A stretch of DNA of 64,000 nucleotides, from NCBI RefSeq assembly GCF_020382885.2, contig NC_058493.1, positions 26,900,999 through 26,964,998 of the forward strand, written 5' to 3'. Below, in pieces: positions 7,801 to 9,175 of the stretch. Source of the stretch: Scatophagus argus (taxonomy: Eukaryota > Chordata > Actinopteri > Scatophagidae). A model generated the notes under the pieces. The model was not told where the DNA came from, did not search any database, and worked only from the letters and a program-made list of their open reading frames with translations. Position numbers and translations under genes: made by a program. Position 1 is the first letter of the stretch; each line of letters opens with the position of its first letter.

Positions 7801-9175
7801 GACAGACAGGAAGAGACCGACGATAGTCGAAAGCAGTCTGTGGACAGTCACATCTGAACTGGCCAACTTATATAATAATTCAACAATCATTTCTCAGTCA
7901 TCTCTATGTAGAAAGCAGGACGGTGAATCTGAAAGTTCACTCCATATGATTCAAAATGTAGTCAGTATTTATATGGTGAACATTAAGAATTGCTTTCCTG
8001 AACTTTGTTAGCATCAAAACATCACATTTTTACCTTTTACTCATTTCCAGAATTACCTCAAAACACTAACAAGACTCCAGCAGAAGCAACATCCAGCGCA
8101 GCCGAAGCAAAGCATCAGAGGAAGAGGACATGGGCCACTTTTGTAGCCTCACATAGTGGGACAAGGTAAGTACTTCTTAACATGTCAATAATGATTCAGG
8201 TCTCCTGTTTAAGTTCAAGAGATTCAAACACATATGATCTATGCAGAACACCAGGCACTGGCTCACCAAAGAGGAAGAGGATGAGGATGGACCCTCTTCA
8301 CGACTCGAAAGAGACTCCATTTGAGGTTCAAGCCTGTGTGGACGACGTTAAACCTCAAAAGAAAAGGAAGCGGGACACTTTCACAGACTCACATCTTGGC
8401 TCACCCAGAAGTCCAGACAACTCCTCACCAAAGAGGAAGAGGATGAGGATGGACCCTCTTCACGACTCGAAAGAGACTCCATTTGAGGTTCAAGCCTGTG
8501 TGGACGACGTTAAACCTCAAAAGAAAAGGAAGCGGGACACTTTCACAGACTCACATCTTGGCTCACCCAGAAGTCCAGACAACTCCTCACCAAAGAGGAA
8601 GAGGATGAGGATGGACCCTCTTCACGACTCGAAAGAGACTCCATTTGAGGTTCAAGTCTGTGTGGCCGAAGTTCAACCTCAAAAGAAAAGGAAGCGGGAC
8701 ACTTTCACAGACTCACATCTTGGCTCACCCAGAAGTCCAGACAACTCCTCACCAAAGAGGAAGAGGATGAAGATGGACCCAGAGGAGGTGGAGAAAAAAA
8801 CAAGTAAGCTCATCTTTGAATCCAATTCAGGTCTCAGTTAAACCATGTCCTGTATAAAAGTGACACATTTGTAGGTAGTTTGGTGAAATTTTGTGAATCA
8901 ATTTCCAAATGTTGGTGAACAAGTGAACTTCCTTGTTTTGTTTTGTTTTTCCTTACAGAGGTGTCCAACAACTCTCACCAGGCTTCATCTAGCATGTCCA
9001 AAGAGTCACAGCGTGACGAAAAGTAGGTATTACATCACAACCCCGTTTTCATTAGATTGTACTCTTGGAGCAAAAGATTTAAACAACATTTGATCTGTGC
9101 AGAAACCCAGACTGCTCATCTCCAGACATGCCGAGGAAGAGGAAAAGGAAACAGAAGAACCTGGATGGACCATAG
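4828..9175 (+). CDS. HIPK-like serine/threonine protein kinase with repeated basic C-terminal tail
   Basis: Coding exons: 4828-4830, 5220-5447, 5545-5736, 5948-6129, 6231-6354, 6500-6616, 6716-6784, 6890-7077, 7182-7504, 8051-8165, 8247-8803, 8959-9022, 9103-9175. All junctions are GT/AG and in frame, giving 744 codons. The kinase domain (about residues 34-360) shows the Gly loop GEGSFG (41-46), the VAVK lysine (63), the catalytic loop HTDLKPNN (156-163), DFG (180-182), an activation loop with [12 protein letters not shown], and [16 protein letters not shown]. This pattern is typical of the HIPK branch of the DYRK family, nuclear kinases that phosphorylate transcription regulators. All residues needed for catalysis are present. 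Downstream come a Ser-Thr run (exon 9) and a 54-residue repeat array rich in KRKR/KKRKR clusters (exon 11), unlike the long HIPK1-3 C-termini. Teleosts carry many lineage-specific HIPK-like paralogues, so no one-to-one gene symbol is assigned. The start ATG is the last codon of exon 1; an alternative start lies two codons later (5223). Confidence 0.9.
7252..7302 (+). repeat. Coding hexanucleotide (ACCAGC)n tract, Ser-Thr repeat
   Basis: Exon 9 of the HIPK-like gene holds a near-perfect ACCAGC array with one ACTAGC variant. It encodes alternating Thr-Ser residues just after the kinase domain. Such a tract is low-complexity, probably disordered, and likely to vary in length between individuals. 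It keeps frame at any unit number because the unit is 6 bp. Confidence 0.9.
7706..7711 (+). promoter_or_regulatory. Candidate intronic poly(A) signal AATAAA
   Basis: If exon 9 of the HIPK-like gene is read through its donor at 7505, the frame stops at 7540. This AATAAA follows 166 bp later inside intron 9. Together they could make a short kinase isoform that lacks the basic repeat tail. The hexamer is exact, but use of the site is inferred only. Confidence 0.35.
8263..8780 (+). repeat. 162-bp coding minisatellite, three full units plus a partial fourth
   Basis: Unit starts fall at 8263, 8425, 8587 and 8749, exactly 162 bp apart. The first two units look essentially identical over their length. 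The third carries a few changes (for example Ala to Val and Asp-Asp-Val to Ala-Glu-Val), and the fourth is cut off by unique sequence. Each unit encodes 54 residues including [11 protein letters not shown] and [11 protein letters not shown], that is, two basic clusters beside Ser-Pro sites. The period is a multiple of three, so unit gain or loss keeps frame. The similarity implies recent duplication. Confidence 0.95.

Follow-up and report, generated by a model that had tools for sequence, protein, structure and literature searches.

The HIPKs are proline-directed kinases. Their reported features include a homeobox-interacting domain (HIPK1-3), a PEST region (HIPK1-2) and a YH-rich C-terminus, and binding of PIN1 to HIPK2 is made possible when the kinase phosphorylates itself at T880/S882 (PMC10952393). 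HIPK2 is located in nuclear speckles through NLSs and a retention signal (PMC11141872). In the yellow goosefish genome the HIPK family is reported to be expanded, and the excerpted description of this expansion makes no mention of a tail repeat (PMC7729161). Repeats within coding sequence are likewise known. The zinc-finger array of PRDM9, a coding minisatellite, consists of near-identical in-frame units whose number is expected to change by unequal exchange (PMC3890296). The SP(K/R)(K/R) motif has been reported to bind the DNA minor groove and to be inhibited by phosphorylation (PMC9903204). Motifs of this kind are found in the basic SPKK tails of sperm histones. Among the matches listed for the open-access literature, searched by titles and the starts of abstracts, no HIPK-like kinase bearing a tail of repeats was found. 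Coding repeats and the kinase family are both of known kinds; what is new at the locus described here is the kinship of the repeat unit with a module encoded by exons 10 and 11 of the same gene. We consider it probable that the repeat is a coding minisatellite by which the C-terminal tail of this HIPK-family kinase gains nuclear-import-like and SPKR motifs next to Ser/Thr-Pro sites.

The gene was modelled in a window of 64,000 nucleotides of Scatophagus argus DNA, the whole stretch that was analysed. Its exons were placed manually, guided by splice sites and homology, giving a predicted gene model with the following parts.

4828..9175, plus strand: HIPK-like kinase gene of 13 coding exons and 744 residues, with GT-AG introns, an open spliced frame and a PDB match
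4828-4830, 5220-5447, 5545-5736, 5948-6129, 6231-6354, 6500-6616, 6716-6784, plus strand: coding exons 1-7
6890-7077, 7182-7504, 8051-8165, 8247-8803, 8959-9022, 9103-9175, plus strand: coding exons 8-13
7182..7504, plus strand: exon 9, the first tail exon
8051..8165, plus strand: exon 10, an older and divergent version of one portion of the repeat module
8166..8246, plus strand: intron 10, 81 bp, at a module position where the array units have no intron
8247..8803, plus strand: exon 11, which holds the array
9103..9175, plus strand: exon 13, which ends the coding sequence and has another basic cluster before the stop codon

All 12 introns are of the GT-AG type, and the 744-residue frame stays open from the ATG at 4828 to the TAG stop codon that ends at 9175; human HIPK2, in contrast, has 1198 residues (PMC11141872). 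Pfam recognises a protein kinase domain (1e-52). Among the best 60 of 298 PDB matches, this domain scores highest with HIPK3 (1.1e-95) and HIPK2 (2.9e-94), the next family being represented by DYRK1B (9.6e-51); the bit scores are 324, 320 and 317 for chains of HIPK3 and HIPK2 and 176 for DYRK1B. It is therefore closer to the HIPKs than to DYRK, CLK or PRP4 kinases within these 60 matches, from which HIPK1 and HIPK4 are absent, and its placement with the HIPKs is one by pairwise scores. Identity to the HIPK3 chain amounts to 172 of 371 aligned residues. The YLQxRYYR activation-loop motif is common to this kinase and the aligned HIPK chains, HIPK1-3 belonging to the DYRK family of the CMGC group. 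The catalytic Lys, HxD, DFG and activation-loop Tyr motifs were all found in the 744-residue model, and we take them to have these roles in the kinase. Given the PDB affinity and the retention of the catalytic motifs, the gene encodes a HIPK-like kinase that is probably active, and the kinase identity proposed in the initial annotation is borne out. Such a divergent HIPK-like gene could belong to a fish HIPK expansion. On the initial annotation, the array would stand in for the long C-terminus usual in HIPKs. The gene differs from HIPK1-3 in having a tail with repeated basic modules, which are arranged in exon 11 as follows.

8263..8424, plus strand: repeat unit 1, 54 residues
8425..8586, plus strand: repeat unit 2, identical to unit 1
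8587..8748, plus strand: repeat unit 3, with four amino-acid-changing differences
8749..8780, plus strand: partial unit 4, followed by other sequence up to the exon end

TRF delimited a 162-bp unit tandemly repeated in 3.2 copies (8262-8780), with 98% matches and 0% indels. When the sequence from 8262 is compared with itself at lag 162, 352 of 357 positions are identical (98.6%), whereas the background at this lag reaches at most 33% among 1239 equal-length stretches of the window, so that the periodicity is not a matter of chance. Units 1 and 2 agree in every one of their 162 bases. Unit 3 departs from unit 2 at 4 of 162 bases, all of them within 18 bp (codons 24-30 of the unit) and all nonsynonymous (A/V, D/A, D/E and K/Q, with no silent change), unit 3 having V, A, E and Q where units 1 and 2 have A, D, D and K. 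Four differences fall within 18 bases in 750 of 200000 random placements, and conversion may have homogenised the remainder of unit 3 while sparing this 18-base patch. The partial fourth copy comprises 32 bases that match the unit with one difference. The array is open in one frame throughout, at 54 residues per unit, and both the frame and the two basic clusters are unchanged across the three whole units; it thus matches the definition of a coding minisatellite, its near-identical units following one another in frame within a coding exon of the gene model. The initial annotation had correctly given the position of the array, the length and number of its units, the types of cluster and the identity of the first two units, and its in-frame array of exact period agrees with the period of 162, the lack of indels and the open frame. 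Its suggestion that the array was recently expanded or homogenised is supported by the identity of units 1 and 2.

The tail, taken as residues 370-744 (375 residues), contains 70 K/R and 48 D/E residues and is probably disordered, as judged from its composition. Exon 11 by itself (186 residues) contains 46 K/R residues, 14 of the 18 S/T-P sites of the tail, all four of its SPKK-type motifs (each of them SPKR) and seven of its eight runs of at least four basic residues; residues 1-369 have no such run. Each unit carries the clusters SPKRKRMRM and QKKRKRD, and 13 basic residues against 9 acidic ones. The presence of two runs of at least four basic residues in one unit was reached in 19 of 20000 shuffles, while one SPKK-type motif per unit was reached in 1094 of 20000 unit shuffles and is not clearly above what composition gives. 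Translation and motif counts confirm the pairing of basic clusters next to Ser-Pro sites that had been noticed beforehand. The unit returned no PDB match up to E 10 and no Pfam family at or above its cut-off. DUF503 (22.1 bits against a cut-off of 22.4) was rejected and taken for a composition match, as were DUF2406, Geminin, CCDC32, DUF3195_C and Tad3 (E up to 1, below their cut-offs). When viral contigs were queried, the 389-residue kinase part gave two pattern matches and the 185-residue exon 11 peptide one, none of which was confirmed. The tail also contains a second, microsatellite-like coding repeat, a (CACCAG)n run at 7251-7303 in exon 9 that encodes a Ser-Thr repeat.

The array unit has a counterpart elsewhere in the gene. 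Spliced exon 10 and the head of exon 11 align with the array across the splice junction, with a DNA score of 74 that 0 of 500 dinucleotide shuffles reach; the same comparison at the protein level scores 59 with the identical KRKR end excluded, a value reached by 0 of 2000 shuffles. Exon 10 keeps its basic cluster, in a shorter form (QRKR), amid diverged surroundings. Because the alignment passes through the splice junction, one tail module is seen to be present in two forms, with an intron in exons 10/11 and without it in the array, and the array looks like a young repeat grown from an older module. Precise cDNA-mediated intron loss is possible; imprecise deletion of the intron fits as well, since at the junction the array is longer than exons 10 and 11 by 3 bases. 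Intron gain in the split copy is a possible alternative to intron loss, and we claim no direction between the two forms. The intron-bearing form may itself have been duplicated, since the end of intron 12 and the head of exon 13 match the end of intron 10 and the head of exon 11 at a level reached by 0 of 500 shuffles, intron end and exon head being tested together.

Further pieces of the module were recognised downstream of the coding sequence.

9364..9620, plus strand: second copy of a 257-bp tandem duplication, 3' of the stop codon, with 5 differences in 257
9615..9705, plus strand: relic of a further module with a donor-like flank, resembling the end of exon 11 and the start of intron 11

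The first copy of the duplication (9107-9363) begins in exon 13, and the duplication lies mostly beyond the stop codon, in the 3' flank. The basic part of the array matches the start of the second copy (9358-9400) at 79% over 43 bp (E 2e-5) and is 80% identical to the relic at 9615-9659, the E values of the relic matches being 1.6e-6 and 2e-5; neither piece is evidently split by an intron. This basic part is purine-rich and also matches a GGA repeat at 55786 (E 8.5e-4), more weakly than it does the relics, which calls for caution with short matches. Over its whole length, 9615-9705 aligns with the end of exon 11 and the start of intron 11 with 75% identity across 91 columns (E 8e-11), a similarity that 0 of 500 shuffles attained. 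Exon 13 is tied to the array mainly by way of the relic at 9364, to which it is 97% identical over 69 bases; a direct comparison of its DNA with the array gives a weak match (70%, E 0.13). As the 257-bp duplication just downstream, mostly 3' of the stop codon, shows, the sequence around these modules duplicates readily, in coding and non-coding copies alike.

A strict two-exon module running through the tail (exons 10 and 11, then 12 and 13) was rejected after several homology tests failed. In its favour were the start phases 1 and 2 shared by both exon pairs, and the resemblance of the end of exon 9, with its donor side, to the relic near 9665-9708, which 0 of 500 shuffles equalled. Exons 12 and 13 match the array weakly (their score is reached by 8 of 500 DNA and 333 of 2000 protein shuffles), and significance was lacking for exons 12 and 13 against exons 10 and 11 (470 of 2000), for exon 9 against the unit (233 of 2000) and for intron 9 against intron 11 (137 of 500), intron 10 against intron 11 being borderline (14 of 500). 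Of the proposed homologies, only those of exons 10/11 and of the pieces further downstream were retained.

The array might also be a neutral by-product of a fast-drifting tail whose modules recombine often and in which in-frame gains of units are tolerated without functional effect, a reading that we hold to be possible rather than probable and that stays a strong rival. All differences between units are nonsynonymous, as such a reading would have it, and the comparison of exons 10/11 with unit 2 over 40 codons, with the identical KRKR end excluded, gave a dN of 0.46 and a dS of 0.87. The bootstrap 95% range of dN/dS, 0.16-1.37 (480 of 500 resamples usable), spans 1, so that constraint is neither shown nor excluded, and no sign of selection in the tail was found by this ratio. 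The 257-bp duplication, with its few differences and its position just downstream and mostly past the stop codon, points in the same direction, as it suggests that duplication here occurs irrespective of coding content. It is harder to reconcile with neutrality that the frame and both basic clusters are intact in three whole units and that the basic cluster of exon 10 persists though its surroundings have diverged.

Two other explanations bear on whether the array is real and expressed. The gene is known here from its sequence alone and relic modules lie 3' of its stop codon, as might be expected if the kinase copy were a silent or dying duplicate whose tail yields no product, but the open frame over 13 exons, the GT-AG boundaries of all introns and the retained catalytic motifs make this unlikely. 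Misassembly of another number of units, or of a single one, as 3.2 copies is very improbable: short reads could indeed misstate the number of units identical over 162 bp, yet unit 3 and the partial unit 4 can be told apart from the others, the difference between units 2 and 3 requires more than one unit, and the array keeps its frame and splice sites.

The coding minisatellite that we favour would have grown by unequal exchange or replication slippage, and conversion would have evened out units 1, 2 and most of unit 3. If the kinase works in the nucleus, the KRKR/KKRKR clusters may act as redundant importin-binding sites; by reasoning only, a single basic cluster should be enough for import. 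The SPKR motifs, being of the SP(K/R)(K/R) type, would give weak DNA or RNA contacts, and the adjoining Ser/Thr-Pro sites would be targets of proline-directed kinases, HIPKs included. Phosphate on these sites would weaken the nucleic-acid contacts and thereby release the tail. The number of units would set the avidity, much of the variation in this number being perhaps near-neutral; on the initial annotation, it could tune nuclear import, nucleic-acid binding or self-phosphorylation. This proposal of a tail that serves import and the holding of nucleic acid, and that is released by phosphorylation, draws on the facts reported for HIPK2, PIN1 and SP(K/R)(K/R). A bolder version, which we regard as quite unlikely, is that of a self-regulated chromatin anchor: the module would have lost its intron, fused and multiplied, each copy adding SPKR contacts and self-phosphorylatable Ser-Pro sites, so that the number of units would set the strength or duration of the stay on chromatin and would differ between populations or species.

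When set against the described systems, the unit differs from that of the PRDM9 array in having no known folded domain by PDB and Pfam. It shares with the sperm histone tails the SP(K/R)(K/R) motif in a basic tail; here, however, the four SPKR motifs belong to a kinase and recur every 54 residues, separated by acidic residues, and their DNA contact is putative, the motif count being not clearly above composition. Young coding arrays in kinase tails constitute a natural dosage series for short linear motifs, in which the effect of motif number on localisation and kinase output would be read directly from carriers of two, three or four units. If the number of units proves to be fixed or silent, the array is an ordinary repeat. 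A single gene that contains one module both split and fused provides a small, clean case of intron loss or gain at the birth of a coding minisatellite.

Elsewhere in the window, a 180-residue open reading frame on the minus strand (41293-41835) has a sub-threshold match to RVT_1 (E 0.00016; 21.9 bits, the cut-off being 29.6) and is a probable LINE fragment. An uninterrupted open reading frame of 732 residues at 34075-36273 encodes leucine-rich repeats and an Ig domain, and presumably resembles ISLR2/LINX.
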